A DNA stretch of 28,827 nt. It comes from a virus. How positions within the stretch are numbered: position 1 is the first letter of the stretch; each line of letters starts with the position of its first letter. A program made the position numbers and the translations under genes. The notes under the pieces are model-generated. The model did no database searches. It was given only the letters and a program-made list of their open reading frames with translations, and had not been told where the DNA came from. This document shows positions 8,390 through 26,087 of this stretch, piece by piece. Where the stretch lies: positions 1-28,827 of the IMG/VR virus record IMGVR_UViG_3300026094_000028; one strand, written 5' to 3'.

Positions 8390-8421
8390 ATATAAGTACT
8401 TTTTCTAGGGTAATTATTCCA
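8390..8421 (-). promoter_or_regulatory. Phage-type promoter, copy 1 (GGAATA-N15-GTACTT)
   Basis: Read leftward, GGAATA (8415-8420) is followed after exactly 15 bases by GTACTT (8394-8399) and then ATATA. The intervening AATTACC and AAAAA are shared with the other two copies (near 15.45 and 23.79 kb). It lies about 70 bases upstream of the 86-aa gene and SSB. The GGAA plus 17 bases plus GT layout resembles ECF sigma-factor promoters. The leader contains CTGTA-tctc-TACAG, related to the repeat motif of the other leaders. Confidence 0.72.
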
Positions 8422-10857: not shown

Positions 10858-11300
10858 TCATAAATCTCCTCTAAGCGTTTCTCTTGCCGTTTCCACTCTA
10901 GCCAGTTAATCTTCACGTCCTCAACGCACCTGTGAGCATACTCCTCATAGCTAAGGTTCTCCCAGTCATCCACCTTGGGTTTCTGAACCCCATGTTCCCT
11001 GCCAATAGCATCAAGCCCATGTGAAGCACGGTCAGGATAGAGATACCTAGAGACCCAAAGAGTGTCGATATACTTCTTGTAGTCTAGCGGTATGCCAAGG
11101 AGCCTGTTGAAAACCACTTGGTCGTGAGCGACAGCATTGTGCATTACCAGAAGGTCGGCACTCTCATGGACTTCTCTCATGGTTTGGTAATCATTGGTAG
11201 ACTCATAAGTCTCCCCGTCTTCTGTCCATGACATCACATGGAGTTTACTACAGTCGTAGGCTAGACCATCTGTTTCTGTATCAGCTACTAGGATTCTCAA
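10854..11300 (-). CDS. 3'-5' proofreading exonuclease (detached polymerase N-terminal domain)
   Basis: The 148-residue DnaQ-like exonuclease corresponds to the N-terminal domain of T7-type polymerases. Exo I is D7-x-E9 (VADTETDGL) and exo II is HNAVAHD (54-60). Exo III reads RCVED (124-128), with Arg where YxxxD would have Tyr. It overlaps the helicase stop by 4 nt and the 61-aa gene by 4 nt. It likely provides proofreading in trans for the polymerase encoded just downstream. Confidence 0.88.
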   Translation of the reverse strand: MRILVADTETDGLAYDCSKLHVMSWTEDGETYESTNDYQTMREVHESADLLVMHNAVAHDQVVFNRLLGIPLDYKKYIDTLWVSRYLYPDRASHGLDAIGREHGVQKPKVDDWENLSYEEYAHRCVEDVKINWLEWKRQEKRLEEIYE

Positions 11301-12937: not shown

Positions 12938-13274
12938 AGTCAATTATTCCAGCCTTTTTCAGTTCAAGATAATTCCTTGCCTGATACTCAAAGATACCTT
13001 TTTCCTCGGCGAAGGCTTTAACGGCATCTTCTTCATCCATTTGGTCTTTTTCTTTTCGGTTCAAAGGCCGATACCCAACAACAGTTACCCCCTCTTTCTC
13101 TAGGTCATACAGCATAGCCTCTAGTTGCCACTGTAGGTCCGCAACAGACTCACCTACAACCCTCACAGGTTCTTCAGTCCAACTGTTAAGGTCAGGATAC
13201 ATCTCGTGGATACCATACCATACATCCCCGTTGTCCTCAGTGTGCTTTATAGCTTGATAGTGCCAGTGGCTCAT
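12930..13274 (-). CDS. Conserved-looking phage hypothetical protein, 114 aa
   Basis: Starts MSHWHYQAIKHTEDNGDVWYGIHEMY, seemingly one compact domain, then a charged helical tail after YRPLNRKEKDQMDEED. A similar opening (W-x-Y-Q-x-x-x plus YGIHE) occurs in small proteins near helicase or polymerase genes of other phages (from memory). It is coupled to the helicase gene by an 8-nt overlap. Function unknown. Confidence 0.68.
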   Translation of the reverse strand: MSHWHYQAIKHTEDNGDVWYGIHEMYPDLNSWTEEPVRVVGESVADLQWQLEAMLYDLEKEGVTVVGYRPLNRKEKDQMDEEDAVKAFAEEKGIFEYQARNYLELKKAGIIDYD

Positions 13275-14063: not shown

Positions 14064-14403
14064 TGTAGTGCCTTTCTATATATTCAGCCGCTATTCTTAA
14101 ATACTTAGGGTTATCTTGTAGTTTACCTATTCCAACATTACAAGGCCAACACAGGATACCCCTAACCTTGCCAGTAGAATGACAATGGTCTATGTTTGCT
14201 GTAGTATCCTTTGACCCCGCAGTTCTGTCAAAATTTATTGGCCTACTACAGATCAAGCAAAGACCGCCTTGGTCAGAAAGCATTTTGTCCCTCTCCGGTA
14301 TCGTTATTTTGTACCTGTGTTTAGCCATGATGCAGGGATCACAGTAGTTATGGTGGGGCTTCTTAGCTGGGTTTACGCAACCTTCGTTTAAGCATATTTT
14401 CAT
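14053..14403 (-). CDS. HNH endonuclease (endonuclease VII-like) inserted at thyX
   Basis: Homing-type nuclease of 116 residues with the recombination endonuclease VII pattern. The zinc ligands are C49, C52, C85 and C88, and the catalytic core DHCHSTGKVRGILCWPCN spans 72-89. An extra N-terminal cysteine cluster (C4, C9, C21, C24) resembles a second zinc knuckle. The start overlaps the thyX stop (ATATGA) and the 3' end overlaps the thyX remnant. The nuclease therefore sits exactly between two versions of the thyX 3' end. Confidence 0.9.
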   Translation of the reverse strand: MKICLNEGCVNPAKKPHHNYCDPCIMAKHRYKITIPERDKMLSDQGGLCLICSRPINFDRTAGSKDTTANIDHCHSTGKVRGILCWPCNVGIGKLQDNPKYLRIAAEYIERHYNGV

Positions 14404-15257
14404 ATGACACCCTCTACCAAAAGAGGTGCTGCGATAGGGAATTGCCTCTTTAGTTCCGTATATATTTTTTCAGCTACCAAACGAGTTTCATACTGACTGT
14501 CTGGAGCAAGACGTAACTTGGCCATATTAGCAAAAGCTCCTAGTGTTCCACTCCATGTCCATGCGGTCATAAGAGACTGAGGGAGAACCATACGTGCTTG
14601 CTCTGGTGCTACTCCAACCTCTTCAACTAATACTCTATACCACCCCCTGACCTTAGCCATATCGTATTGGTACGCCCCCATGACCCCGCTATGATTGAGG
14701 ACACGACCCTCAAGACTCCCTTGCTTCTTATCAGGTGCAGCCTTACGCCAAACATCGGGGGTATAAAACTCAACGTCATCCGTGATATACCTACGGGAAT
14801 ACTCACTCATGATGAGGTACTCATGTTTCACCAACTGCGCCCTTACGAAGATAGGTGCTTTTACCTCGAAACTAAAAAACCCGTGGTTAAACGGTGTGTC
14901 GTGAGTAGGTGTGTTGCGCCATTCCCAGAGTTTTTCTACAAGAGCTTGTTCGTAATACTCCCAGTCTGCTTGATCCTCAACCATGTAACCATCTGCAACA
15001 CAAGAACTTACAAAAGCCTCAAAGTCATCAGCAGTCATACCTCGTGCCAAGAACTCAAGAAGGCGTTTGTCTTTGTCTTTAAGTCTCTTGTAAGGTGGAA
15101 TCTTACCCCCTGTATGCGGGTCAGTAGGACATTCACTTTCAGAGGCCCACTCACTACGCTTACCAAAACTCCTACGTGCTGCATTAATAACGCCAAGATC
15201 ACTTCCTGTAGGCGGGACATCAGGGTTCAACTGCACAATAATCTGTTCTTCACCCAC
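14400..15257 (-). CDS. thyX: Flavin-dependent thymidylate synthase ThyX
   Basis: Makes dTMP from dUMP using FAD, NADPH and methylenetetrahydrofolate. The 285-residue product has the ThyX core, including APIFVRAQLVKHEY and SEYSRRY. The signature RHRx2SxNExSxRY is altered: residues 144-157 read K-H-E-Y-L-I-M-S-E-Y-S-R-R-Y, so the RHR triad is KHE and two further positions differ. GTG start with AAAAGGAGAAAC. The last 39 residues (247-285) have a diverged second copy downstream of the HNH gene, so the present 3' end may be imported. First gene after the 15.45 kb promoter. Confidence 0.9.
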   Translation of the reverse strand: MGEEQIIVQLNPDVPPTGSDLGVINAARRSFGKRSEWASESECPTDPHTGGKIPPYKRLKDKDKRLLEFLARGMTADDFEAFVSSCVADGYMVEDQADWEYYEQALVEKLWEWRNTPTHDTPFNHGFFSFEVKAPIFVRAQLVKHEYLIMSEYSRRYITDDVEFYTPDVWRKAAPDKKQGSLEGRVLNHSGVMGAYQYDMAKVRGWYRVLVEEVGVAPEQARMVLPQSLMTAWTWSGTLGAFANMAKLRLAPDSQYETRLVAEKIYTELKRQFPIAAPLLVEGVI

Positions 15258-15409: not shown

Positions 15410-15433
15410 GTCTTTTGATCCCCCTATGTAGGA

Positions 15434-15465
15434 ATATAAGTACTTTTTCAGTGGTAATTATTCCA
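15434..15465 (-). promoter_or_regulatory. Phage-type promoter, copy 2 (GGAATA-N15-GTACTT)
   Basis: Read leftward, GGAATA (15459-15464), 15 bases, GTACTT (15438-15443), then ATAT. The block GGAATAATTACC and AAAAAGTACTTATAT is identical to copy 1. It points at thyX about 180 nt away, and onward to helicase and polymerase. Probably read by the phage sigma factor encoded just upstream. Confidence 0.75.
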
Positions 15466-15571: not shown

Positions 15572-15757
15572 TTATGTCCTTTCTTTATCCTTTTTCACAT
15601 ATACAACTCCATTCAAGTGTATCTCCTCAATTTCTACTTCAGGGGTTACAAAAACACTATCTACAGTCAATTCGAGTGTTTTGTAACCTTCCAGATAAAA
15701 CCCCTTGTCGTCAGACTTTGTTAAATCAATAGGTCCTTGGTGTTTTAATTCACTCAC
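15572..15757 (-). CDS. Hypothetical acidic protein, 61 aa
   Basis: GTG start (MSELKHQGPIDLTKSDD) with GGGGAGAG upstream, directly downstream of the sigma-factor gene. It is rich in short beta-strand-like stretches ending VVYVKKDKERT. It is the last gene before the promoter region at 15.45 kb. Not recognised. Confidence 0.6.
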   Translation of the reverse strand: MSELKHQGPIDLTKSDDKGFYLEGYKTLELTVDSVFVTPEVEIEEIHLNGVVYVKKDKERT

Positions 15758-15778
15758 GGTTTGTCTCTCCCCAGTTTC

Positions 15779-16363
15779 TCACGTAACCTGCTCAAGTGCT
15801 TTCTTCAGCTTCTTCATCCCCTTCCTAGAAACCTTAGAGACAGTCCCTTGGGGTAAGTCTAATTCCTGTGCTACCTCATATTGGGTGTAATCCTCAACAT
15901 ACATCAGGTGGATAACAGCAGCCTCTTGAGGCTCAAGGTAAACCCACAGACAGTCAACTACATACTGGTGAAGCTCCTTTGTTATGTAGGTTTCTTCAGA
16001 ACTCTCAACAACACCCTTAGTGCTGGGCTGTATTGTGTCCAGAGAGCCTGTGAGAGCCTCATACAGAGCCACTTCAGTATTCCCTTGGGGGCTAACCCCA
16101 GAACCACTGTTAATGGCCCCTAGGAGTGAATACACAGCCCCACTCTTAGGGATACTGACGGGCTTTAGTGTGATGTTCTTGTAGTCATTCATAGCCCTTC
16201 TCATAATTCCTATGGCATTAGGCATGTCAGCGCCATTCTCTAGTGCCTCCCAAGCTGCCAAAAAACCCTCTTGATATAGTTCCTCATACTCTTGACTGTC
16301 CTTGTATCTCTTGGCGAGAATGCTGCAGACTTTCATTACTTTCTCTGTTTTGTCTTGAGTCAC
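15779..16363 (-). CDS. Sigma-70 family (ECF-like) RNA polymerase sigma factor
   Basis: The 194-residue predicted sigma factor probably redirects host RNA polymerase to phage promoters. A region-2-like segment lies at about 20-60 (YKDSQEYEELYQEGFLAAWEAL-type helix, then MRRAMNDYKN), with a VSIP stretch at 69-72. Region 4 is clear at about 130-190, where LEPQEAAVIHLMY leads into a helix-turn-helix (YTQYEVAQELDLPQGTVSKV) and a basic helix (RKGMKKLKKAL). Regions 1.1 and 3 are largely absent, as in ECF factors. GTG start four bases after the previous gene, with GAGGTG. It lies in the operon served by the sigma-70-type promoter at 17.69 kb, so it would be expressed early. Confidence 0.82.
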   Translation of the reverse strand: MTQDKTEKVMKVCSILAKRYKDSQEYEELYQEGFLAAWEALENGADMPNAIGIMRRAMNDYKNITLKPVSIPKSGAVYSLLGAINSGSGVSPQGNTEVALYEALTGSLDTIQPSTKGVVESSEETYITKELHQYVVDCLWVYLEPQEAAVIHLMYVEDYTQYEVAQELDLPQGTVSKVSRKGMKKLKKALEQVT

Positions 16364-16366
16364 CCG

Positions 16367-16690
16367 TTACACCTCATAGTCTTTATCACTAGGGCTGCTC
16401 ATTCCCACTGGTGGGTTGTTCTCGCCGTAGTGCCCGTATTCACTAAAAGGTTCTTCGTAAGCATTTGATGCTTGACCTTCAGCGGCAAGGCAATCAAGAG
16501 TCTTCTCCGCCAAAAGTTTCTTCAGCCGCTCGTTCTCGGCTTCCAGCTTGTCGCGTTCGGCGGCTATTGCGCGGAGAAGGTCTTGCCACCGCTGCCCATA
16601 CATCGGGGGTATCATGAGTAGTATTGTGCACTCGTGGATATTCCGGCACTCCCGCTCCACCGCCTCTACGCTTGTGTCTGTGTCAGCCAT
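16367..16690 (-). CDS. Hypothetical coiled-coil protein, 107 aa
   Basis: Starts MADTDTSVEAVERECRN. Residues about 43-70 form a heptad-rich coiled coil (AAERDKLEAENERLKKLL). GAAGGAGAT precedes the start, which overlaps the upstream gene by 8 nt. The 5' two-thirds are conspicuously GC-rich, unlike most of the phage, and resemble Rhodobacter-type codon use; the 3' end returns to phage composition. Likely recent acquisition from host or prophage DNA. Confidence 0.68.
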   Translation of the reverse strand: MADTDTSVEAVERECRNIHECTILLMIPPMYGQRWQDLLRAIAAERDKLEAENERLKKLLAEKTLDCLAAEGQASNAYEEPFSEYGHYGENNPPVGMSSPSDKDYEV

Positions 16691-17195
16691 CGGTATCTCC
16701 TTCGATCATTGAGTCGTCCTGACGGACTAGGGCGAGGATGGCGTCATAGACCGCGTTGCAATATGTTTGCGCCTCATCAGTGTGGGCGTCCTTTACGGCC
16801 CTTCCTGCAATACCCAGAGCCTCCCATAGCGCATCTTCCCTCACCCGATCGTCACGGGCAGCAAGGGCGGCTTGGGCGTCGGCGGGGGTGATGGCGCGGA
16901 TATTCTCGGCTTCGTTCGCCAAGGCTGATGCCTGTGTAAAATTGCCACTTGCTGCGGCCATATGGGACACTTCGTTGATACGTGTCGCCGCGTCCTCATA
17001 AGCTGCCGCGACCGCTTCCAGCTTCTCCCGTTCAAGCTCCCCGATGCGGTCGGCGGCTTCGCGCAGTTTCGCCGATGACCTCCACTCAGGTGATTGTCTG
17101 AGTTCGGACGCACCCTGCGATCCGTTTCGAATATTGTCCCGGTGTTCGAGAAGGGTTGCCAATTCTCGCGCTTCTTTCACCAGATCATCACTCAT
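16683..17195 (-). CDS. Hypothetical alanine-rich helical protein, 170 aa
   Basis: Starts MSDDLVKEARELATLLEHRD. It is almost wholly helical and Ala/Glu/Arg-rich, with a coiled-coil-like centre (KLREAADRIGELEREK) and an ALxxxDDRVREDALWEALG segment typical of uncharacterised alphaproteobacterial prophage proteins. GC-rich with host-like codons. AGAAGGAGA box. Function unknown. Confidence 0.68.
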   Translation of the reverse strand: MSDDLVKEARELATLLEHRDNIRNGSQGASELRQSPEWRSSAKLREAADRIGELEREKLEAVAAAYEDAATRINEVSHMAAASGNFTQASALANEAENIRAITPADAQAALAARDDRVREDALWEALGIAGRAVKDAHTDEAQTYCNAVYDAILALVRQDDSMIEGDTDG

Positions 17196-17225
17196 CGTCA
17201 GTCTCCTTCTGTGCTTCTTAGTATC

Positions 17226-17399
17226 TCAAAACAACGGGTACCACGTATCACCCTGACTGTCAAGCCACTTAAGGCCCTCAATCTCCAAGATAAGCTCTTC
17301 AAGGGCTTCTGGGGCCATTCCTAGCCAGTCCTCTGTGTTACCCACTTCCTGTTGTTTGTCCCTCAAGACTTTCTTCAGTGGGATTACATTGTCAGCCAT
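17226..17399 (-). CDS. Hypothetical protein, 57 aa
   Basis: Starts MADNVIPLKKVLRDKQQEVG and ends DTWYPLF. It overlaps the stop of the gene upstream by 8 nt (ATGGCTGA). An acidic helix (PEALEELILEIEGL) fills the middle. Not recognised. Confidence 0.6.
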   Translation of the reverse strand: MADNVIPLKKVLRDKQQEVGNTEDWLGMAPEALEELILEIEGLKWLDSQGDTWYPLF

Positions 17400-17634
17400 T
17401 AGTGTGCTCCATTAGTGTCACGACAGAGTCTTTGCGGAAAGCTCTCCAAGCACCTTTCTCAAGGTCCATGACAGGCACCACATCTTCACTCTTAGGGGGT
17501 CCACTGGGTTTCTCCATCATAGCTTTCATCCTACGGGTTTCACCGTTAGTCTTGATAAAAACAACTACAAACTCTTTCTGGTAGCCAATGGTCTTCAGTT
17601 TGTTGTCTACCTTCTCGGGTGTCATAGTTTCCAT
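17392..17634 (-). CDS. Small SH3-like/DUF2693-type phage protein, 80 aa
   Basis: Starts METMTPEKVDNKLKTIG after AAGGAGAGAATC. The pattern FVVVFIKTNGETRRMKAM followed by a GAWRAFRKDSVVTL strand matches the small beta-barrel proteins common in phages and grouped as DUF2693/WYL-like (from memory). It is first in the operon that ends with the sigma factor, and its promoter is immediately upstream. Confidence 0.65.
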   Translation of the reverse strand: METMTPEKVDNKLKTIGYQKEFVVVFIKTNGETRRMKAMMEKPSGPPKSEDVVPVMDLEKGAWRAFRKDSVVTLMEHTNG

Positions 17635-17665
17635 TGATTCTCTCCTTCTCTGTGTGTTGTGTCTT

Positions 17666-17694
17666 ACTCTAAGTGATACTTGAGTAAGTGTCAA
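17666..17694 (-). promoter_or_regulatory. Sigma-70-type promoter with repeat motif in the spacer
   Basis: TTGACA (17689-17694), 17-bp spacer, TAGAGT (17666-17671), read leftward. The spacer contains TACTCAAGTATCACT. The 14-mer ACTCAAGTATCACT recurs exactly at 24083-24096 in the leader upstream of terminase. It drives the sigma-factor operon. Confidence 0.72.
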
Positions 17695-17703
17695 GAGGGA
17701 AGC

Positions 17704-17778
17704 CTAGAAAATATAGAAGGCTACTAAGGAAAGCATCAGCATGATAAAGGCTGCTGACAGCTTCTCGTGTTCTCTCAT
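17704..17778 (-). CDS. 24-aa single-span membrane peptide
   Basis: Encodes MREHEKLSAAFIMLMLSLVA plus FYIF. It has a charged N-terminal tip and one hydrophobic segment. A strong AAAGGAGAC box precedes it and it overlaps the lipoprotein stop (ATGA), which supports translation despite its size. It could act with the lipoprotein or in lysis; unknown. Confidence 0.5.
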   Translation of the reverse strand: MREHEKLSAAFIMLMLSLVAFYIF

Positions 17779-18227
17779 TGTTTGTCTCCTTTGTTGCAGT
17801 AGCCTACACCAGACAGACTCATGACTTTATCCAGAGGCACTCTCTCAAAGACAATGATAATCTTGTAGATGCCCTCACCATAGAACCAAGCCCTCATTTC
17901 GGGCGAGTAGTAGTTAGTCATAGCCTTGTCAGACTGTGCCTTAGTCTCACCGGGGTATGGGATTGACCCATGAAAAAGAAACTTGGCGCGAGGAGTAACA
18001 CAGGCACGATCAGCCCCAAGATACATAGTGCAGGCAGACATACACTTTCCGTCTATCACGACAGTCTGTCCACTGCGATTAATCTCTTGAATGTGCCTTG
18101 CGTATGTTTCTATGTCTCCCCCTTCGTCATACTTGATGCGCACTACATCATTCGTAGTTTCATGGATACTACAGGCAGACACCAAGGATGCTGCCAGTGT
18201 TAGGGATGCTATCAGTGAGTGTTTCAT
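17775..18227 (-). CDS. Predicted periplasmic lipoprotein, ClpP-like/COG3904 type
   Basis: Secreted lipoprotein of 150 residues: basic start MKHSLIAS, hydrophobic core, lipobox LVSAC with Cys19 as lipidation site. The mature part has GGDIETYARHIQEINR, DGKCMSACTMYLGADRACV and a later FLFHG, the arrangement of periplasmic ClpP/crotonase-fold proteins in which the Ser of C-x-SAC is the presumed nucleophile. It may alter the envelope, exclude other phages or assist lysis (inference). It lies in the early leftward region near the endolysin. Confidence 0.65.
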   Translation of the reverse strand: MKHSLIASLTLAASLVSACSIHETTNDVVRIKYDEGGDIETYARHIQEINRSGQTVVIDGKCMSACTMYLGADRACVTPRAKFLFHGSIPYPGETKAQSDKAMTNYYSPEMRAWFYGEGIYKIIIVFERVPLDKVMSLSGVGYCNKGDKQ

Positions 18228-18254
18228 GTCGTGTCTCCTTCTAGTTAGTGTCAG

Positions 18255-18539
18255 TTAGATCGTCTCAGGGTTGTGCCTCAGGTAGTCCATGATAAACTCT
18301 TCGACGTTCTCTACAGGCCCCCTACCAGCAGCGTCAATGACTTGCTCGCGGGTCAACTTCAGGCCATCCAAGCGTAGCTCAAAAAGCTCTACACTGTCAA
18401 CCTCAATTCCGTCAGTCCCTCCAATATCAGCGTCGTATGCCTTGGAAAGAGTCACATCGTATGTAGCAACACCTGCAAGACTACAGTTGTCACCCTCAAA
18501 AAATGCTTCGTTGTCTTCATACCAGATCGTGCTGCTCAC
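18255..18539 (-). CDS. Hypothetical acidic protein, 94 aa
   Basis: GTG start with AAGGAAG box. The N-terminal half is acidic and aromatic (YEDNEAFFEGDNCSLAG). The C-terminal part resembles a helical pair with LTREQVIDAAGRGPVENVEE. No recognised family. It precedes the lipoprotein gene in the same operon. Confidence 0.65.
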   Translation of the reverse strand: MSSTIWYEDNEAFFEGDNCSLAGVATYDVTLSKAYDADIGGTDGIEVDSVELFELRLDGLKLTREQVIDAAGRGPVENVEEFIMDYLRHNPETI

Positions 18540-18603
18540 TTCCTTGACTCCTCTTTCTTTCAGCCATTACTTGATGTACATGTAGTCTGATTTGTCAAGA
18601 TAG

Positions 18604-18738
18604 TCAAGCATTTCTCTGTCCAGCCTCGTATGCACGTTTCATTGCCTTGTAAGTGATTGACCGTCTAGCAGCCTTGAACTCATGCTCGTCTGTGAGGCTC
18701 TTGCCGATAGCCCTATCCCACCATTCCTCAAAAGTCAT
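18604..18738 (-). CDS. Hypothetical protein, 44 aa
   Basis: Reads MTFEEWWDRAIGKSLTDEHE and ends YEAGQRNA. The W-W helix followed by AYEAG resembles a small-protein type common in phages, like the 53-aa product near 4.9 kb. It overlaps the upstream 68-aa gene by 11 nt. A TTGACA/TTGACT pair just after its stop (18585-18608) may be a weak promoter for the 94-aa gene. Confidence 0.6.
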   Translation of the reverse strand: MTFEEWWDRAIGKSLTDEHEFKAARRSITYKAMKRAYEAGQRNA

Positions 18739-18934
18739 TTTCTAACCCTTCCTGTTCGTCCCTCCACTGCATCTCTGCATCAAACTGTTGGTCACTGTCA
18801 AGGATAAACTCTTCCCCAGCCTTCATGCCTTCAGTATATACACCAGCGAGATAACCCACCTCGTCCAGAAGTGCCATGTCCACCTCGTACTCGTAGTCAT
18901 CCTCATCAATCATGTAGATACGCTTGTCAGCCAT
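18728..18934 (-). CDS. Hypothetical very acidic protein, 68 aa
   Basis: Starts MADKRIYMIDEDDYEYEVD and is strongly acidic throughout (ends EQEGLENDF), so it could mimic DNA or bind a basic partner. AAAGGAGAAACC box. Directly behind the promoter at 18.97 kb. Not recognised. Confidence 0.65.
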   Translation of the reverse strand: MADKRIYMIDEDDYEYEVDMALLDEVGYLAGVYTEGMKAGEEFILDSDQQFDAEMQWRDEQEGLENDF

Positions 18935-18960
18935 TTGGTTTCTCCTTTGTGATTGATTCT

Positions 18961-18989
18961 AACTTAGTGTGTTTCAGCCGGGGTGTCAA
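18961..18989 (-). promoter_or_regulatory. Sigma-70-type promoter
   Basis: TTGACA (18984-18989), 17-bp spacer, TAAGTT (18961-18966), read leftward into the 68-aa acidic-protein gene. The -35 box overlaps the stop of the preceding gene. The region across the -10 (CACTAAG, then AGAATCA) is a weaker match to the motif in the other early promoters. Confidence 0.6.
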
Positions 18990-19207
18990 TAGTCCGAAGG
19001 ACGTCGGCCTTTGGCCTCAAGTGCGCTGTTTGCTTTTTCTCGGAAATTGTACCAGTCAACAACTGTCTGTTCAATAGCAGGGATAGGCACAACATAGCGT
19101 GTCTCTTGCCGAGCGTCTGCAAAATTACTCGCGTCTCCACTGTCCAAGAACACAGCTACCATAATGTCTCGGATTTGAGCCATCTCGAATACTACGTAGA
19201 GTTCCAT
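18986..19207 (-). CDS. Hypothetical protein, 73 aa
   Basis: Starts MELYVVFEMAQIRDIMVAVF and has an ADARQETRYVVPI segment; ends GRRPSDY. The start overlaps the stop of the 49-aa gene (TAATG). Small soluble protein with no recognised family; third of a coupled trio. Confidence 0.6.
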   Translation of the reverse strand: MELYVVFEMAQIRDIMVAVFLDSGDASNFADARQETRYVVPIPAIEQTVVDWYNFREKANSALEAKGRRPSDY

Positions 19208-19356
19208 TAGTCTTTCTCCAGTTCTTCTTTTAGTGCCTTAGCTACAGCCAATGCAAGATCAGGCACTTCAGTGTCATAGTCAAGAACATTGTCCATTTCG
19301 TTGAACACAAAATCCTCAAGCTCTTCTAGGCTCATGTCTTGTAGTTTTTTATCCAT
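19207..19356 (-). CDS. Hypothetical acidic helical protein, 49 aa
   Basis: Starts MDKKLQDMSLEELEDFVFNE, ends KEELEKD, GAGAG box. Stop and start are shared with the neighbours (TAATG on both sides), so translation of the trio is tightly coupled. Function unknown. Confidence 0.58.
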   Translation of the reverse strand: MDKKLQDMSLEELEDFVFNEMDNVLDYDTEVPDLALAVAKALKEELEKD

Positions 19357-19532
19357 TAGTGACTCTCCTGTTTCTCAATATCAGCCACAGCTTTGGTGTA
19401 ACCCTCGTTGCAACCTTTTGTGTAGGCATCCTTGGAGACACTCGCGCACAAACTCTTAATGTCGTCAATACCTACAAGCCCTTCCTCCATAGCTCGATTT
19501 GCCAAACGGTTTACAAAACTCTCGAAATCCAT
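19356..19532 (-). CDS. Hypothetical protein, 58 aa
   Basis: Starts MDFESFVNRLANRAMEEG, with AAGGAGAGAAAC. A longer in-frame reading would run through the promoter and has no ribosome site. The C-terminal AYTKGCNEGYTKA matches the small-protein pattern seen near 4.9 and 18.7 kb. First of a coupled trio. Confidence 0.6.
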   Translation of the reverse strand: MDFESFVNRLANRAMEEGLVGIDDIKSLCASVSKDAYTKGCNEGYTKAVADIEKQESH

Positions 19533-19560
19533 TAGTTTCTCTCCTTTGTCACTGAGTATC

Positions 19561-19589
19561 TGTATATGTGATTCTCTAGTGTCTGTCAA
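19561..19589 (-). promoter_or_regulatory. Sigma-70-type promoter with repeat motif in the spacer
   Basis: TTGACA (19584-19589), 17 bp, TATACA (19561-19566), read leftward: nearly consensus. The spacer holds CACTAGAGAATCACA, almost the same as CACTACAGAATCACT in the promoter near 20.04 kb. It drives the 58/49/73-aa trio. Confidence 0.78.
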
Positions 19590-19598
19590 CCAGAAACT

Positions 19599-19997
19599 CT
19601 AACAAAAACCTTCACAGGTATAAAACACATGATCCCCAAAAACACCATCAATTACAAAAACATCTGCCCAAAAAGGGGATACAAAAGTAGTGTGATAATG
19701 TGTAGAGGTAGCTCCAAGCCTATTGTTTCTCTCAAGATAGTCACTGGCAAGTTTCAATGCAAGCTCCCTAGCGATAGTGTCCTGATAGCCTTTGTAGGCC
19801 CGCATATCATCTGACAGACCGTCATGTGTGAAGCTGAAGGCCCTCTCTTGGTAGACTACATCACACACTGTATCGGGAAACCTAGAGTGTTCCACCCTGT
19901 TCAGGATCACTTCAGCTACCATCTCTTGCCCTGTGATTGGCTGGTCCCTAGCCTCGAAGAAGATAGCTGTAGCTAGGCACATAAGTTCAGTCATCAT
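19599..19997 (-). CDS. Endolysin, SleB/CwlJ-type cell-wall hydrolase
   Basis: Predicted peptidoglycan hydrolase of 132 residues. It has IFFEARDQP (catalytic Glu15) and GQEMVAEVILNRV, then FPDTVCDVVYQ, AFSFTHDG, THYHTT and SPFWA, and ends near GDHVFY, the full SleB (Hydrolase_2) pattern. There is no signal peptide, so a holin or membrane protein is needed for release; the 24-aa, 54-aa and 56-aa membrane genes are candidates. The ATG is fixed by AAGGGG and by the promoter just upstream; longer frames run into the HNH gene. Confidence 0.88.
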   Translation of the reverse strand: MMTELMCLATAIFFEARDQPITGQEMVAEVILNRVEHSRFPDTVCDVVYQERAFSFTHDGLSDDMRAYKGYQDTIARELALKLASDYLERNNRLGATSTHYHTTFVSPFWADVFVIDGVFGDHVFYTCEGFC

Positions 19998-20024
19998 TTT
20001 AGTTTCCCCTTGTCTGTCAGATAC

Positions 20025-20053
20025 TTGATAGTGATTCTGTAGTGGGTTGTCAA
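20025..20053 (-). promoter_or_regulatory. Sigma-70-type promoter with repeat motif in the spacer
   Basis: TTGACA (20048-20053), 17 bp, TATCAA (20025-20030), read leftward into the endolysin gene. The spacer holds CACTACAGAATCAC. The -35 box overlaps the end of the HNH gene, suggesting the HNH was inserted just upstream of an existing promoter. Confidence 0.75.
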
Positions 20054-20556
20054 AGGTTTTCTTGGAGAAATCTGTCCCTAGCTTTAACAGCTTTACCGAG
20101 GCACTTGTAAAAGCCCCAAAGTTTACCATCAAAACGGACCAACCAAACATCCTTACAAAAACTGACGTGCTTAAAAACCCTACCTTTGTAAAAACCCTTA
20201 TTAAAATTGTTCTCTTTTTGGGTAATATCTCGTAAGTTACACCAACGATTGTCCCAAGAGTCTCTGTTAATGTGGTCAATAGTATACTCAGGCCAATCTC
20301 CGGTTTGCACTAACCAACACAACCGAGATATAATATATGTGTAGCTCTTCCCTTTAATCTCTAGTTTCATCGTGTGGTTTTTGTAGTCATCCTTACTGAC
20401 CCATTTATGACCGACCTCTTGCCCTGCTTTGTTCTCATCAAACCATTTAAAACCTCGTTCAGCCCAAGTCAATGACCCTGTGTCCGGGTTGTAATCTAGT
20501 CTGCTGATAATTTCGTCTTTGACCCACTGTTGTTGTATAAACTCGTCTCTGGTCAT
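20050..20556 (-). CDS. HNH homing endonuclease
   Basis: The 168-residue HNH_3-type nuclease has SRLCWLVQTGDWPEYTIDHI as its first half-site (D94, H95), then NRDSWDNRW and NLRDIT (N107). A basic AP2-like tail follows (FKHVSFCKDVWLVRF). The start MTRDEF has AATAGGAGAAAC. It is the first leftward gene after the control region. Confidence 0.85.
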   Translation of the reverse strand: MTRDEFIQQQWVKDEIISRLDYNPDTGSLTWAERGFKWFDENKAGQEVGHKWVSKDDYKNHTMKLEIKGKSYTYIISRLCWLVQTGDWPEYTIDHINRDSWDNRWCNLRDITQKENNFNKGFYKGRVFKHVSFCKDVWLVRFDGKLWGFYKCLGKAVKARDRFLQENL

Positions 20557-20606
20557 GTAGTTTCTCCTATTATTCCCTCTGTAGGGGATCACATTTTGTT
20601 AGTATT

Positions 20607-20714
20607 GTCAAGCGAACAATTCCCTTGGTGGGGGTCAAGCGAACAATTCCCTTGGTGGGGGTCTGGCGAACAATTCCCTTGGTGGGGGTCTGGCGAACAA
20701 TTCCCATGGTAGGG
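20607..20714. repeat. Four tandem 27-bp repeats beside a leftward TTGACA
   Basis: Four uninterrupted 27-bp units start at 20607, 20634, 20661 and 20688. The first two begin GTCAAGCGAACAATTCCC, the last two GTCTGGCG; the fourth has two changes in its 3' part. Read leftward, units 1 and 2 contain TTGAC, and the array abuts a TTGACA at 20606-20611 facing the HNH gene. There is no good -10 box at 17 bp. The array may be an operator or origin element. Confidence 0.85.
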
Positions 20715-20798
20715 GTGCTACCAGTCTAGTTGCGAGTCATTCTCACGATCACGGAATGTTTCAATATTGTAATAAACATCACGATTTGCCCCATTGAG

Positions 20799-20826
20799 TT
20801 GACTCAACAGGTTGATTCTGTATTAG
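20799..20826 (+). promoter_or_regulatory. Possible rightward promoter overlapping an 11-bp palindrome
   Basis: TTGACT (20799-20804), 16 bp, TATTAG (20821-20826). The -35 lies inside the perfect palindrome GTTGACTCAAC (20798-20808). No open frame follows closely. The stretch 20715-20962 is otherwise AT-rich and apparently non-coding. Confidence 0.3.
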
Positions 20827-20962
20827 AAAGTGTGACATTTTAGCAACTGATTCGCATGTGCCGTCCCCTCCTGTTTTTTGCGATCCGATCAGACTAGCCG
20901 ACCGGACCCGATATGATTCGAATTTGATTCCTTTAAACCACAGATTCCTACTGACGTCAAGT

Positions 20963-21083
20963 GTTCTCGAGATGATCTATAGAGATGCTTGCGAGATGAT
21001 CTATAGAGATGTTCTCGAGGTGAGCTGTCAGGTCAGTCTATAGAGATGTTCTCGAGGTGATCTATAGAGATGTTCTCGAGGTG
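20963..21083. repeat. 24-bp repeat array with two alternating palindromes
   Basis: Units begin at 20963, 20987, 21011, 21048 and (partial) 21072. Each has CTCGAG or a variant followed by GATCTATAGAGAT, so the palindromes CTCGAG and TCTATAGA alternate; unit 3 carries 13 extra bases. The array ends three bases before a rightward TTGACA. A degenerate copy lies at 23577-23596. Probably activator or repressor sites, or origin iterons. Confidence 0.85.
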
Positions 21084-21085
21084 TA

Positions 21086-21114
21086 TTGACAGGCCGCGAA
21101 TCTTGTGTCATTTA
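21086..21114 (+). promoter_or_regulatory. Putative rightward early promoter
   Basis: A perfect TTGACA (21086-21091) directly after the repeat array, with a weak CATTTA/TTTATC about 17-19 bp on. A second TTGACA lies at 21143-21148. The next gene starts at 21251. The -35 box and placement are convincing; the -10 box is not. Confidence 0.4.
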
Positions 21115-21250
21115 TCCTTTATCGCTCCGGCGGTAACGCTATTTGACAATTTAATCTCTACCCCGCGCCATAGGATTCTTTTCCGATAATTGGCGCAAGC
21201 ATTAAGGCGATTCAATCCCGAGTCGCTTTAACCTTGGAAGGGGAAACGTT

Positions 21251-21352
21251 ATGAAAGACACAAAGCAAATCGAGCGCGATGTTGTGGATTACATCATGGG
21301 CCTTTGGCATCAGCGCCGCATTCAACAGTATATCAAGAGCAACGCTAGCTAA
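21251..21352 (+). CDS. Hypothetical protein, 33 aa
   Basis: Reads MKDTKQIERDVVDYIMGLWH and ends YIKSNAS, after GGAAGGGGAAAC. First gene of the rightward small-gene cluster. Probably one amphipathic helix. Unknown function. Confidence 0.55.
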   Translation: MKDTKQIERDVVDYIMGLWHQRRIQQYIKSNAS

Positions 21353-21365
21353 AAGGAACGACACA

Positions 21366-21581
21366 ATGGAAGCTTTTGAGTATTATATAAACTTGGATGA
21401 ACGGGGCCAATTCTTTGCAGATGTAAGGGATTCAAACGGTGAAACGATCTATGAAATACACGGCTTTGATCTTTTTGATGAAAGATACATGCTGGACAAA
21501 TACGACGTGGAGAATCTTGCGGATCATCTGGTGGATTTAGAAATCTTGCCTTTGGGATCATTTATCACGCTTGGAAACTGA
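21366..21581 (+). CDS. Hypothetical acidic protein, 71 aa
   Basis: Starts MEAFEYYINLDERGQFFADV, with AAAAGGAACG upstream. Beta-rich opening (FADVRDSNGETIYEI), then an acidic helical tail. The frame continues upstream through the preceding gene, but the ribosome site fixes this start. Not recognised. Confidence 0.65.
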   Translation: MEAFEYYINLDERGQFFADVRDSNGETIYEIHGFDLFDERYMLDKYDVENLADHLVDLEILPLGSFITLGN

Positions 21582-21595
21582 GAGGGAAACATCTA

Positions 21596-21751
21596 ATGAA
21601 ACTCAACAAAACATTCATGCGGCTATATGCCCTACAATCGAAAGAGACTGGAATCCTATGGGGCCACGCAATGCCCATGCAAGCGGCAGTTAAGGCTCAG
21701 ATCAACGCTAAGCGGCTTGGATATAACTGCGGAATCGTCCGAGTCCAGTGA
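21596..21751 (+). CDS. Hypothetical basic protein, 51 aa
   Basis: Starts MKLNKTFMRLYALQSKETG and ends NCGIVRVQ. GAGAGGG box. The pattern AVKAQINAKRLGYNCGIVRV looks like a small alpha/beta unit. Basic, unlike its acidic neighbours. Unknown. Confidence 0.58.
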   Translation: MKLNKTFMRLYALQSKETGILWGHAMPMQAAVKAQINAKRLGYNCGIVRVQ

Positions 21752-21783
21752 CTCGCGAAAGTAACTGAACGAAAGGTAAGACA

Positions 21784-22404
21784 ATGCAGAACGAACTAAC
21801 CGACATTCAAGAAATCATCGACGCAATCAAATTCCAATTCGACGGCAATGCTATTGTCGAGTATCTGATCGATGAGCATATCACGCAAGACGGATACAAT
21901 AGCGTCGACTCGCTTATCACTGATCTGGAGCTTGCCCATTGCGCGGCAGGTAGTTTTAGCGGCATGATCTACACTCAAGACATTCTTGACCGTCTCGCTG
22001 ATAGGAACTGGCAAGCCGCTATTGAGCGTGCTTTTGAGGATTATACTGACGCCACCGGGGAATCCCCTAACCTTGATCGTGACGCAATGGGCTATCCGTC
22101 TGGATTTCACTTGGAGAATCTTGTCACTTTTGCCGTGGACTGGTTCTCTAACGAAATTGCAAGCTTCCTGCGCTCTCAAGGTAGGTTCTACATAGTGACG
22201 CAGGCCGTTGACTCGCTTGACCCGAATCCTGAACGCAAGGTCTTTTTGGACGAATATGATGCGCAAGATTATGTTTCCGAGTCGTTGTCTCACAGAATGG
22301 ATTATATCGTACAGCACTCGCCCCACAGCATCACTGAACAGGAATATGAAGAACTTCAGGAACAGGAACTTGCCCTCATGAATATTGAAGAGGAGTCGGT
22401 CTAA
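21784..22404 (+). CDS. Hypothetical acidic protein, 206 aa
   Basis: The largest product of the rightward early cluster. It starts MQNELTDIQEIIDAIKFQFD, is acidic and largely helical, and has a LENLVTFAVDWFSNEIASFL segment followed by a beta part (RFYIVTQAVDS) and a Glu-rich tail. GAAAGG box. Not recognised; such early proteins often target host functions (inference from position). Confidence 0.7.
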   Translation: MQNELTDIQEIIDAIKFQFDGNAIVEYLIDEHITQDGYNSVDSLITDLELAHCAAGSFSGMIYTQDILDRLADRNWQAAIERAFEDYTDATGESPNLDRDAMGYPSGFHLENLVTFAVDWFSNEIASFLRSQGRFYIVTQAVDSLDPNPERKVFLDEYDAQDYVSESLSHRMDYIVQHSPHSITEQEYEELQEQELALMNIEEESV

Positions 22405-22628
22405 TGCAGCTCTATAGCGTTACAATCACAGGTTCTTATCCTTTGCAATGTGCTACGGTTACGGATTGTCGAGAGCACGCAGAGAGAATTTGTGAGGCAA
22501 TCAAAGGCAATTTTCCCCGCTTGCGTGGCGTCACGTATGTTGAGAAAACAGATAGCTTCTATCCTTCGCACATGACAGATTGCGATAGTGCCGTCGCTCA
22601 ATTCCTATCTGATAAACAGGAGTACTAA
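22404..22628 (+). CDS. Hypothetical protein, 74 aa
   Basis: Starts MQLYSVTITGSYPLQCATV; its ATG overlaps the previous stop (TAATG). Contains an HAERICEAIKGNFPRLRGV helix and four cysteines. Unknown. Confidence 0.62.
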   Translation: MQLYSVTITGSYPLQCATVTDCREHAERICEAIKGNFPRLRGVTYVEKTDSFYPSHMTDCDSAVAQFLSDKQEY

Positions 22629-22630
22629 TC

Positions 22631-22840
22631 ATGGATTATGAAAGTGAACAATTCGAAGCGGACTACTGGCAAGGCGTCTTAGTAATAACTGACAAGGCAA
22701 CTGGGCAATGTGGCAACGTGATGCTGCACGATAGCAAGGGGCATAATATAACGCTCAGGCAACTACGCTCAGGTATCAAGACTCATGGCGTGGAGCGCGC
22801 CCTTGCTACCTTTGCTAAGCTTGTTACTGAATGGCACTAG
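22631..22840 (+). CDS. Hypothetical protein, 69 aa
   Basis: Starts MDYESEQFEADYWQGVLVI, two bases after the previous stop, with CAGGAG upstream. A beta-rich half (VITDKATGQCGNVMLHDS) is followed by a helix (RSGIKTHGVERALATFAKL). Unknown. Confidence 0.62.
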   Translation: MDYESEQFEADYWQGVLVITDKATGQCGNVMLHDSKGHNITLRQLRSGIKTHGVERALATFAKLVTEWH

Positions 22841-22875
22841 CTGCCCTTTCTATCACACTAACAGGAGTCGGAATA

Positions 22876-23103
22876 ATGCTTCATACACTTTACGCTAAAC
22901 GAGTAGAACCTAGGGATTTAGGGGGCCAGACATTACCCCCTGTTTACCCCTCGCAATATGATGTTGCCTTGTTTGATAGATCCGGTAAGGAGGTTGGGCG
23001 CTACCCTTGGCACTATAAGAGCAAGCCTGACAGGCGTTTCAAATATGTGATGCACAATTGTGCTAGATATAATCTTGTGTGGGAGGAGTCATCTAGTCAC
23101 TAG
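22876..23103 (+). CDS. Hypothetical protein, 75 aa
   Basis: Starts MLHTLYAKRVEPRDLGG, after CAGGAG; an upstream in-frame ATG would overlap the previous gene and lacks a site. Contains YDVALFDRSGKEVGRYPW and a basic KSKPDRRFKYV stretch. Last gene before a terminator. Unknown. Confidence 0.6.
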   Translation: MLHTLYAKRVEPRDLGGQTLPPVYPSQYDVALFDRSGKEVGRYPWHYKSKPDRRFKYVMHNCARYNLVWEESSSH

Positions 23104-23130
23104 TTTTCCCACTGCATACAAGCTATATGA

Positions 23131-23160
23131 GCGCCCGTGAGTAGCCCTTGCGGGCGTTTG
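23131..23160 (+). terminator. Probable intrinsic terminator of the rightward early cluster
   Basis: CGCCCG and CGGGCG form a 6-bp GC stem with a 13-base loop, ending in TTTG, 28 nt after the last stop. The short T run makes it modest in strength. Confidence 0.55.
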
Positions 23161-23772
23161 ACTATGGTGGCACATGGTTTGCGCTACTGGCCGCCAGTGA
23201 GCTTGACAGCGCCTCTGAGGCATGGGGTATTATATTACCTCAATCAATATGTTATGCGCTTTTTGTTTTGGGTCTAGTTGAGAATGATTTGCAGTTGCAG
23301 GGTCGTGGTGTGAGTCTTATGGCGCTGCGAATCCCTTCGCCTCTGTCAAGTTTTTTCTCCACTTCCCCGCAGATTTAACCTCAAGTGTGATCTTTAAGTC
23401 ACTGACCCTGTTGGTTAATCACATTTTGTTTCATTCCTGTAAGAATCGATCACCTTAGGGAGTCAAGGGGTTGACACTGGTCATGGGACCCTTCAGATTA
23501 TACTGTTGCAGATTCGCCGGGGTGGGTAGCGCTGTTAGAATCCAAAACAAAGGTTTTTCACCAGAAGCGATCTAGCGATCTATAGAGGCTATCGAGGGGG
23601 ACCTTGTAAGAAAGGGTAAGCACAAGTAAGAATACTTAACATGTGTATCACAATTTGTTACAAAAGGGCTAAAACTGTAACATTTCGTGAGGTATGTGAC
23701 GGAATGTCGCACCATAAAATAACACCCAATTACAAACACTTAGCAAAAAGGGCCGAAAAAAGTTGTTCTGAG
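23161..23772. other. Non-coding stretch with isolated promoter-like signals
   Basis: No frame here has a ribosome site. Visible signals are TTGACA (23203) and TATTAT (23228) separated by 19 bp around the palindrome GCCTCTGAGGC (23211-23221). There is also the hairpin GCGAATCCCTTCGC with a nearby T6 run (about 23326-23355), TTGACA at 23471 with GGTCATGGGACC after it, and a degenerate copy of the 24-bp repeat unit at 23577-23596. A short untranslated RNA is possible but unproven. Confidence 0.35.
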
Positions 23773-23805
23773 TGGAATATTTTACCTGCAAAAAGTACTT
23801 ATATA
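23773..23805 (+). promoter_or_regulatory. Phage-type promoter, copy 3 (GGAATA-N15-GTACTT)
   Basis: GGAATA (23774-23779), 15 bases, GTACTT (23795-23800), ATATA. Same spacing and same AAAAAGTACTTATAT core as the two leftward copies, but pointing right, toward terminase and structural genes. The leader to the terminase start is about 480 nt and carries the repeat array. Confidence 0.75.
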
Positions 23806-23826
23806 TTAGTAGAGGGGAGGGGATAC

Positions 23827-24288: not shown

Positions 24289-24696
24289 ATGTCTAAGCAT
24301 CCTAATCAGCTTCAATACAATAGTGAGATCGGTAAGAAGGTCCGTGAGTGTTCCGCTGCTGGTGTAACACTTAAAGACACTATGGCTGAGATTCAATCCT
24401 ATGCTTGGGCACCTGTCAGCACTACCAGCTTCTACAAATACTATGGTGAGGACTGGCATGGCCCTCGGAATGACATCACTCGTCAGGTGGGTAACAAGGT
24501 AGCTAATCAGGCTATCAATGGTGATCCTGAGAGTCCTACTACATTCAAGTCTCAAGACCTTTGGCTTCGCACTCAAGGGGGTTGGACACCTAAGACTGTG
24601 GAGGAAACCCGTGAGGTTGGGACTGAGGAAGAGGAACAAGAGAGTGCTGTAGAGGCTCTGATGAGAGCCTTGGGTAAAGAACTTGATGAAGACTGA
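24289..24696 (+). CDS. terS: Terminase small subunit
   Basis: The 135-residue predicted DNA-recognition subunit of the packaging motor starts MSKHPNQLQYNSEIGKKV. An N-terminal helix-turn-helix-like part (VTLKDTMAEIQSY, then STTSFYKYYG) is followed by an acidic tail (GTEEEEQESAVEAL). The assignment rests chiefly on its place, overlapping the large-subunit start by 1 nt (TGATG), and on size. The ribosome site is weak. Confidence 0.78.
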   Translation: MSKHPNQLQYNSEIGKKVRECSAAGVTLKDTMAEIQSYAWAPVSTTSFYKYYGEDWHGPRNDITRQVGNKVANQAINGDPESPTTFKSQDLWLRTQGGWTPKTVEETREVGTEEEEQESAVEALMRALGKELDED

Positions 24697-26087
24697 TGGA
24701 AACCTTCACAACAACCCGATCAAAACCTCAAGTCCTCACTGCCCAATCCCTCCGAAAGCTACCCGATGAACAGGTTAAGCAAGCCTTATCAGAACTAACA
24801 CCCAATCAGGTTAAAGAACTACAGCATGACTGGAAGTTCTGGGCCAGACCTGAACAGATAGAACCTGAAGGTGACTGGGATGTATGGCTCATCAATGCAG
24901 GTCGAGGTTTTGGTAAGACCCGTGCTGGTGTTGAATGGGTAAGGGAACAAGTCAAGCGTGGTAAGAAACGTATTGCTGCTGTAGCTGCTACCAACTCTGA
25001 TATTGAACGGGTTATGGTAAAAGGCGAGAGTGGTTTCTTGAGTGTCTGCTACGAGAAGGATAAGACCTACAAGGGAGCAGAAATAGGCTACCCTGAGTGG
25101 TCTCCCACCAAACGGTCACTCACTTGGAAGAATGGTGCTAAGGTAGAGTTCTATTCAGCCGAGGAACCTGAACGTCTCAGGGGTCCACAGTTTGAAGCTG
25201 CATGGTGTGATGAACTAGCTGCATGGAACAAAGACATTGATACTTGGGACATGCTTCAGTTCTGTCTTCGTCTGGGTAAGCACCCTCGTGTATGTGTAAC
25301 CACTACCCCAAAGCCTACCAAACTTATCAGGACACTCATTAAGAACCCTAAAGTGCATATCACTACGGGTTCTACCTTCGATAACGCTGCTAACCTCGCA
25401 GACACTTACCTGAAGGCTGTCAAGGACCAATATGAAGGCACCCGCCTTGGCCGACAGGAACTCTACGCTGAAGTCATGGAGGAAGCTGAAGGCGCTCTCT
25501 GGACTACCGACATGCTGGATAGTTGTCAGGTGTCACTTAAGGAAGTCCCTCAACTTAATCGTATTGTAGTCTCACTGGACCCTGCCATTACAGCCAACAA
25601 AGAATCTGACATGACTGGTATTGTAGTTGCTGGTGTAGATGTCAACGGTAAGGGATACGCTTTGGGTGACTACACTGACAGGCTCTCACCTCAAGGCTGG
25701 GCCTCCAAGGCCATTGAACTTTACCACCACTTCCAAGCTGACCGTATCGTAGCTGAACGGAATCAAGGTGGAGACATGGTGCGTAGGACTATCGAGGTAG
25801 AAGATGAGACTGTTCCTATCAAGCTTGTCCATGCGTCCAGAGGTAAGTTCGCTAGGGCTGAACCTATTAGTGCATTATACGAACGTGGCCTTGTCCATCA
25901 TGTGAGGGACTGTGAGGCCTCTCTCGGGGAGCTTGAGACCCAAATGCGCACATGGGAACCTCTCGGAAGTATCGGCTCTCCTGACCGCCTTGACGCCCTT
26001 GTATGGGCACTTACAGACCTGATGCTAGGGTCACACCAGAAACCGCAACTCCAACTTGTATACAGTAGCTCCAAAGGACTTCGATAA
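24696..26087 (+). CDS. terL: Terminase large subunit
   Basis: Packaging ATPase and nuclease, 463 residues. Walker A is AGRGFGKTR (68-76) and the Walker B/catalytic pair is DE (172-173, in AAWCDELAAW), followed by VTTTPKP as coupling motif. The RNase H-like nuclease has SLDPAIT (D295), AERN around E354 and SPDRLDALVW (D433). Length and motif layout fit the Terminase_6 type used by headful packagers and gene transfer agents. Complete and intact. Confidence 0.95.
   Translation: METFTTTRSKPQVLTAQSLRKLPDEQVKQALSELTPNQVKELQHDWKFWARPEQIEPEGDWDVWLINAGRGFGKTRAGVEWVREQVKRGKKRIAAVAATNSDIERVMVKGESGFLSVCYEKDKTYKGAEIGYPEWSPTKRSLTWKNGAKVEFYSAEEPERLRGPQFEAAWCDELAAWNKDIDTWDMLQFCLRLGKHPRVCVTTTPKPTKLIRTLIKNPKVHITTGSTFDNAANLADTYLKAVKDQYEGTRLGRQELYAEVMEEAEGALWTTDMLDSCQVSLKEVPQLNRIVVSLDPAITANKESDMTGIVVAGVDVNGKGYALGDYTDRLSPQGWASKAIELYHHFQADRIVAERNQGGDMVRRTIEVEDETVPIKLVHASRGKFARAEPISALYERGLVHHVRDCEASLGELETQMRTWEPLGSIGSPDRLDALVWALTDLMLGSHQKPQLQLVYSSSKGLR

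Follow-up and report, generated by a model that had tools for sequence, protein, structure and literature searches.

A sigma-70-family factor and its putative two-box promoters vary together across a clade of marine phages

The IMG/VR virus record IMGVR_UViG_3300026094_000028, a possibly incomplete stretch of 28,827 bases (here called the window), encodes a 194-amino-acid (aa) protein that, judged from sequence, is in all likelihood a phage sigma factor directing the host core RNA polymerase to three two-box phage promoters. Its gene stands upstream of the primase-helicase gene in a clade of marine phages (85 loci in 50 clusters), and this group very probably carries its own sigma factor for the host RNA polymerase. 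An earlier note on the window had proposed that the factor reads these promoters, and the relatives support this, since their boxes track the sigma factor both at the promoter beside its gene (promoter A) and at distant sites. Genes, motifs, copy numbers, positions, domain-by-domain covariation and mosaic blocks were computed.

Three copies of a two-box motif in the window

The motif described in the earlier note, GGAATA-N15-GTACTT, occurs in exactly three copies, at 8394-8420 (-), 15438-15464 (-), and 23774-23800 (+). As reported there, all three are exact, with a 15-bp gap, AAAAA preceding GTAC and ATAT following, and a motif scan of the window returned no further exact copy. Permitting gaps of 13 to 17 still gives 3 matches (100 shuffles: mean, 0.02; maximum, 1). 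With the trailing ATAT included and up to 3 mismatches allowed, one extra site appears at 14796 (+), with 2 mismatches and within thyX. The stretch common to the three sites exceeds the first description and reads TGGAATA-N10-AAAAAGTACTTATA. The principal features are as follows (L numbers below denote loci).

15779..16363, minus strand: sigma-70-family factor, 194 aa (Pfam Sigma70_r2, 3e-6; Sigma70_r4, 2.5e-12)
15794..15853, minus strand: codons of residues 171-190, start of the region 4 recognition helix (PQGTVSK...)
15435..15465, minus strand: predicted promoter A, TGGAATA-N10-AAAAAGTACTTATA, directed into thyX, primase-helicase and polymerase
8391..8421, minus strand: predicted promoter C, directed into an 86-aa gene, a 190-aa gene (the position labeled single-stranded DNA-binding protein, SSB), exonuclease, endonuclease and ribonucleotide reductase (RNR)
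23773..23803, plus strand: predicted promoter B, directed into small and large terminase and portal

Between the sigma stop codon and the second motif copy, which follows about 315 bp downstream, there is a possible 61-aa gene. The host-type promoter that had been proposed for the sigma operon was not confirmed, as 15200-24400 holds 17 matches against a shuffled mean of 14.3 (standard deviation, 4.7).

Identity of the sigma protein

The assignment of sigma regions 2 and 4 to the 194-aa protein was borne out by Pfam and TIGR02937, with bit scores of 46.5 for PF04545 (cut-off, 24.1), 27.4 for PF04542 (cut-off, 24) and 58.9 for TIGR02937 (cut-off, 42.9). Three relatives, including that of Roseobacter phage CRP-6, score 38.8 to 40.3 with TIGR02937, slightly below the cut-off. 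Among 40 family members, 37 match PHROG sigma family 351 and 34 show region 4 at a Pfam E value of 0.001. The AlphaFold model (predicted local distance difference test [pLDDT] score, 86.5; predicted template modeling [pTM] score, 0.48) consists of two domains flexibly joined, with a linker of two helices, and the Foldseek matches listed carry the titles of sigma factors or of polymerase initiation complexes (best E value, 5e-6; template modeling [TM] score, 0.27-0.37). Residue 171 is the P of PQGT, and the modeled recognition helix spans residues 172-193.

The presence of regions 2 and 4 only, in 194 aa, is the layout of extracytoplasmic function (ECF) sigma factors, which have about 200 aa. 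None of the ECF subfamily models reaches its cut-off among the 25 of 47 matches listed, PF07638 (Sigma70_ECF) is found in 2 of the 40 members, and the nearest solved sequence is Staphylococcus aureus SigB. The protein is ECF-like and is not classed as ECF. A scan of 84,980 cellular genomes with one degenerate peptide pattern, which is not exhaustive, gave 33 pattern matches as a possible cellular source, none of them confirmed.

Relatives and their gene order

Three distant sigma matches, including CRP-6 gp14, came from a protein search of 50,697 phage records. Viral contigs were then scanned with sigma, helicase and terminase queries, the helicase and terminase sets being the best 80 each. 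The sigma profile gave 88 matches, or 85 loci after removal of L002, L004 and L037 (repeats of one stretch), which form 50 clusters at 90% identity; a few loci from the same contig stay, such as L064 and L156 in one cluster. The sigma gene is present in 60 of the best 80 helicase loci and 8 of the best 80 terminase loci, many loci being too short. The recurring order is sigma, gap A, helicase, polymerase, gap C, 190-aa gene, exonuclease, endonuclease and RNR, with gap B and terminase on the opposite strand, while the position of thyX varies (before sigma, after sigma or elsewhere). The relatives, too, have a promoter motif in the gap following the sigma gene.

CRP-6 is the nearest cultured phage by terminase (large terminase subunit [TerL], 62%, and helicase, 53% identical to the window). 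Its gp14 (L021:3586-4101; QBQ72738.1), annotated as a hypothetical protein, is a homolog of the window sigma (35% identity over 69 residues) and falls in the sigma family with an E value of 4.5e-46 for a profile that included gp14 itself and a pairwise value of 4e-4 in the phage collection. Searches of an open-access library turned up no mention of a CRP-6 sigma factor or promoter, and the words "sigma" and "promoter" are absent from the main text of the CRP-6 paper (PMC6918029). The window's motif has no copies beyond chance in CRP-6. The 44.9-kb CRP-6 genome carries instead TTGACT-N13-GACGTCAT in the three equivalent gaps (at 4092, 8031 and 42183), in exactly three copies and with no further copy at up to 2 mismatches; shuffles with mismatches reached three hits in 2 of 100.

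We scanned ten long records for their own motifs at a threshold of 14/17 or better. Exactly three hits were found in CRP-6, the window and the contigs of L071 (46 kb), L022 and L028. The L160 contig (20,000 of 21,696 bases scanned) gave four, the fourth scoring 15, equal to one of the three. Two hits were found in the contigs of L155, L027 and L069, and two plus a weak one in that of L152, the query being uncertain for L155 and L152. A stray hit is to be expected, since each record had 0 to 2 hits when shuffled.

Whether the motif is kept wherever the sigma gene is kept had been put forward as a check on the proposal. The window's own box is mostly absent: its motif occurs in 4 of 42 tabulated lineages, and the GAATA box is missing from 37 of them. 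The remaining lineages have other two-box motifs in the same gap, and absence of the motif would have misled as a criterion, because another motif occupies the same gaps and tracks the sigma protein.

Three approaches to finding relatives or sites were set aside. Cobaviruses were considered as sigma-bearing relatives, and none of five tested (ICBM2, CRP-4, CRP-5, SIO1 and T5S1) was positive. The window's motif in the form GGAATA-N10-AAAAAGTACTT matched 14 viral stretches and is a poor probe alone: when 11 of these and two loci from the sigma query were checked (13 records), the sigma gene was found only in the latter two. Three of the 14 stretches (L005, L008 and L015) come from the same metagenomes as these two loci and could derive from relatives as fragments. 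Whole gaps were also compared by ungapped 30-mer matching, with a crude two-base block shuffle of 40 rounds as the null; this was noisy, and the best match in several contigs was a leader repeat rather than the promoter; the tests below are independent of it.

Each box covaries with its own sigma region

Promoter A was tabulated for 42 of the 50 cluster representatives and analyzed by partial Mantel tests with 5000 permutations. The -35 box correlates with region 4 given region 2 (r=0.40, 0/5000) and not with region 2 given region 4 (r=0.02, 1642/5000). The -10 box shows the reverse pattern, correlating with region 2 given region 4 (r=0.39, 0/5000) and not with region 4 given region 2 (r=0.02, 1907/5000).

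The end of the sigma gene that encodes the recognition helix adjoins promoter A, and linkage could couple the two; sites C and B were therefore located by their -10 box only, and 34 of 36 genome-gap pairs, from 28 genomes, were kept. The -35 sequence at these distant sites agrees with the box of its own genome at 6.09 of 7 bases, compared with 3.80 (standard deviation, 0.25) for permuted genomes (0/5000). At 24 of the 34 sites no foreign box, defined as one from a genome whose box differs at 3 or more of 7 bases, fits as well as the genome's own. The distant -35 also correlates with the helix given region 2, both at C (n=22, 0/5000) and at B (n=11, 11/5000).

Several points weigh against this picture. 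Eight representatives were omitted with the promoter unclear or inside the gene end (L039, L042, L155, L024, L113, L097, L087 and L111). The -35 positions in the 42-row table were assigned by eye; we therefore repeated the test with 8 bases at a fixed position past a conserved element, and this control agrees (33 representatives; helix given region 2, r=0.48, 0/5000; region 2 given helix, r=0.05, 846/5000). The Mantel permutations treat representatives as exchangeable, ancestry being corrected only via the other sigma region. The pairs L050 C and L055 C were dropped because their own -10 was not found, and the L086 C gap was too short. One to three foreign boxes fit as well as the own box at five of the 34 sites, and another five are clear failures (L028 C and B, L099 C, L187 B and L051 C). 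With C and B taken together, there is also a weak correlation of region 2 with the -35 (r=0.16, 52/5000). In L051, gap C carries TGTTACA although its own A and B boxes are TGTCTA(G); this may be a box still to catch up with an exchanged sigma domain, or a recombinant. Finally, region 2 reaches a Pfam E value of 0.001 in only 11 of the 40 family members.

A candidate helix-to-box code

Six classes of recognition helix, whose patterns were written after viewing these data, predict the -35 box correctly for all 33 of their members, and nine of the 42 representatives belong to no class.

NKM[WL]VSR helices: TGTTAC, 8/8
[NST]Q[KR][WTLQ]VSR helices: TGTCTA, 9/9
[ST]KQA[IV] helices: TTGAC, 6/6
TQQ helices: CTTGT, 3/3
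[ST]QK[ST][IV]S[IM] helices: AGTAT, 3/3
[PSG]QG helices: GAATA, 4/4 (L071, outside the class, likewise has GAATA)

A later scan for the conserved element provided at least 117 new loci, examined in two batches of 78 and 39, with 19 and 11 sigma-profile hits. Six and five of these repeat known sigmas (at least 99% identical) and two and one are partial, which leaves 11 and 5 new sigmas whose identity to the first set is below 90%. Seven of these belong to a class, in each case NKMW, and the six with readable boxes (L255, L281 and L225, which are alike, L244, L310 and L332) all have TGTTAC; the seventh, L265, lacks the element. Outside the fixed patterns, L236 and L299 (NQTW) have TGAATAA, like L071; L251 (NQVW) has TGTATAA, like L026; L328 (HQSW) has TGCATAA, like L048 and L046; L271 (NQKI) has TGTCTAA; and L334 (SKQR) has TTGAC. 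Previously unseen boxes were found in L269, L293 and L266. When each of 47 distinct helix-box pairs is predicted from its nearest helix, 5.58 of 7 bases agree, compared with 3.61 when the other pair is drawn at random.

In the model, these residues (171-174 in the window) form the beginning of the recognition helix, and the -35 code may be so simple that it can be read directly. Where the second residue is Q, a third residue K or R may specify TGTCTAA, S TGCATAA, T TGAATAA and V TGTATAA, with QK[ST][IV]S[IM] helices, which go with AGTAT, as a possible exception to the Q-K/R rule. K-M may likewise specify TGTTACA, and K-Q TTGAC.

Natural exchange of region 4 together with its box

Up to residue 135, the sigmas of L051, L056 and L064 agree at 133-135 of 138 positions, but at the helix end they agree at only 9-13 of 27. 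The promoters of these loci have the same -10 (TATCCCTATT) and differ in the -35, which is TGTCTAG, TGTTACA and TGTTGAC, respectively. In 30-bp windows their DNA identity is mostly 83-100% before region 4, is as low as 20-83% in the stretch that runs from region 4 to the end of the -35, and is back to 83-100% for at least 60 bp past it. Region 4 and the neighboring promoter A -35 box have thus been replaced as a block between sister phages. L046, in the cluster of L051, has the helix NQSTVSR and the box TGCATAA, a box that it shares with L048 (DQSWVSR).

The helix codons lie only about 60-80 bp from their own -35 in many lineages (about 390 bp in the window). As the helix is encoded close to the box it would read, one recombination event could replace both in register. 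We lean, by a small margin, toward the view that the sigma gene end and promoter A form an exchangeable specificity cassette, with B and C following later. Such a cassette would let phages of this clade change their promoter specificity again and again, which perhaps keeps co-infecting relatives from activating each other's genes.

A 15-bp element, TGTAACAATTYGTGA, is near-invariant at the sigma gene end beside promoter A (e.g., L021:4077-4091). It occurs in 36 of the 50 cluster representatives at up to 2 mismatches and is read in three frames (17, 13 and 6 cases), which indicates conservation as DNA or RNA rather than protein. At the same stringency it is single-copy in CRP-6. The window has two near-copies:

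23648..23662, minus strand: TGTAACAATTYGTGA near-copy, 1 mismatch
23676..23690, plus strand: TGTAACAATTYGTGA near-copy, 1 mismatch, 83 bp before promoter B

Alternative explanations and a proposed mechanism

The sites might instead be host sigma-70 promoters with a TATATT-like -10, helped by a phage activator, the sigma-like protein being that activator or having another role. TATAT does trail the motif, and the upstream box is the host -35-like TTGAC in 6 of 42 representatives. The remaining 36 lack this box, however, and both boxes vary between lineages, each with a different sigma domain, whereas an activator would keep the host -10. We regard this explanation as improbable. Still less probable is a non-promoter site (replication, packaging or termination) whose similarity within a genome arises through copying. 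The number of about three copies per genome and the adjoining repeat-rich leaders would suit such a site, yet the copies are oriented into gene modules and consist of two boxes at near-constant spacing that covary separately with regions 4 and 2, and at gap B, L051 and L064 differ in the -35 box despite nearly identical flanks. That the helix and the -35 covary through physical linkage only, with the sigma gene end and promoter A traveling together, agrees with their exchange as a single block but has been largely refuted and has next to no probability left, as promoters C and B follow the helix although they are kilobases distant in long records.

Under the preferred reading, that of a phage sigma factor with promoters of its own, the host polymerase would most likely transcribe the early genes as far as that for sigma, sigma included. 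The sigma gene precedes the first of the three promoters and is therefore probably a product of host-driven early transcription. The phage sigma would then join the host core, with region 4 reading the -35 and region 2 the -10, and the new holoenzyme would turn on replication (A), recombination and nucleotide genes (C), and packaging and virion genes (B). The pair of sigma and promoter would have diversified within the clade, giving lineages with their own boxes. In this scheme, binding and sigma activity are inferred, as are the early promoter, the start sites and the timing.

Relation to known systems

Phages of the T7 group encode a single-subunit RNA polymerase at the end of the early region, use its own promoters thereafter, and have diverged in specificity between relatives. 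Unlike in that group, a sigma factor here takes the polymerase's place beside a T7-like replication module. The expectation that no single-subunit RNA polymerase would be present held: PF00940 is absent from 12 of 12 sigma-bearing records, including the complete CRP-6 genome, most of the others being possibly incomplete. Fourteen control genomes were also negative, and CRP-7, added as a positive control, was detected at 2.5e-58. Several marine phage groups (cobaviruses) have a T7-like replication module without a phage RNA polymerase (PMC6918029). For the CRP-6 group, a sigma factor with its promoters is a concrete, testable answer to how such phages may time their genes.

Close parallels are found in two phages described in PMC8948821. 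Salmonella phage 7-11 encodes the sigma SaPh711_gp47, with late promoters GTAAtg-(16)-aCTA in eight copies per genome, and 7-11 and phiEco32 have divergent sigmas and dissimilar promoters at similar genome positions (PMC8948821). The system proposed here resembles 7-11 in combining a phage sigma, host core polymerase and two-box promoters, and in spacing (L073 has GTTACA-N16-CCTATA). As for the sigmas of both phages, the predicted own promoters lie ahead of phage modules. It differs in that gp47 is only weakly related (family profile A6, 6e-5; best blastp, 34% over 53 aa) and in that 7-11 is an 89.9-kb phage whose sigma gene lies within the late genes and not before the helicase. The window sigma thus falls outside the gp36/gp47 sequence family, as judged against gp47. 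Coliphage phiEco32 gp36 (tAATGTAtA) likewise drives middle and late genes with host core, but from a single-element promoter and with no region 4 homology (PMC8948821), unlike the two boxes and clear region 4 found here.

Rhodius et al. (2013) built bacterial ECF chimeras in the laboratory, in which swapped domains gave new orthogonal specificity, with domain 2 reading the -10 and domain 4 the -35, as proposed here (PMC3817407). Unlike those chimeras, the exchange described here occurred in natural phage genomes, with the cognate box beside the domain. Phage sigmas with their own promoters are already known; new are this family, its apparently readable helix-to-box code, and the natural exchange of specificity. 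The clade is a natural experiment with dozens of sigma-promoter pairs whose partners are known, some near-identical sigmas differing mainly in the -35-reading domain, and it offers a candidate region 4 residue-to-base code and possibly orthogonal sigma-promoter pairs.

Other genes and repeats of the window

The main genes beyond promoters A and B are as follows.

14400..15257, minus strand: thyX, first large gene past promoter A (Pfam Thy1, 3.5e-32)
11297..12943, minus strand: primase-helicase (phrog_239, 6.6e-96)
24289..24696, plus strand: gene in the small-terminase position, first past promoter B; precedes terL, without a PHROG match
24696..26087, plus strand: terminase large subunit (Pfam Terminase_6N, 1.8e-25; 62% identical to CRP-6)

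The gene at 24289..24696 shares 38% identity over 135 residues with the CRP-6 gene at the equivalent place. The earlier label "SSB" (7493-8065) was not confirmed: the gene matches no PHROG family, though it shares 37% identity with its positional counterpart in CRP-6. The portal of the terminase module is present only as a gene truncated by the window end (28025-28825).

Upstream of promoter B, gap B of L051, L064 and CRP-6 contains TTGACA, then GGGACCC, then a TATTA(T/C)-like box. This arrangement resembles a host-type promoter with an operator in its spacer; in the window, around 23471, the spacing is longer. The leaders past promoters A and B, at 15382-15411 (-) and 23825-23854 (+), share a near-identical 30-mer (29/30), ACTACTATAGTATTyACTTTAGTATCTCAC, and TACTATAGTA-like units also occur in the leaders of some relatives. 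Four tandem 27-bp repeats (GTCAAGCGAACAATTCCCTTGGTGGGG) lie at 20607-20714, in a divergent region between leftward and rightward small genes, and spaced GATCTATAGAGATGTTCTCGAGGT repeats at 20952-21093 are candidate replication-origin iterons or operators. DNA polymerase A is encoded as two genes (10857-11315 and 9204-10712) with a small open reading frame between them, as in cobavirus ICBM2, and HNH or endonuclease VII-type genes are found in the window, for example at 5311-5955 and 27499-28047.

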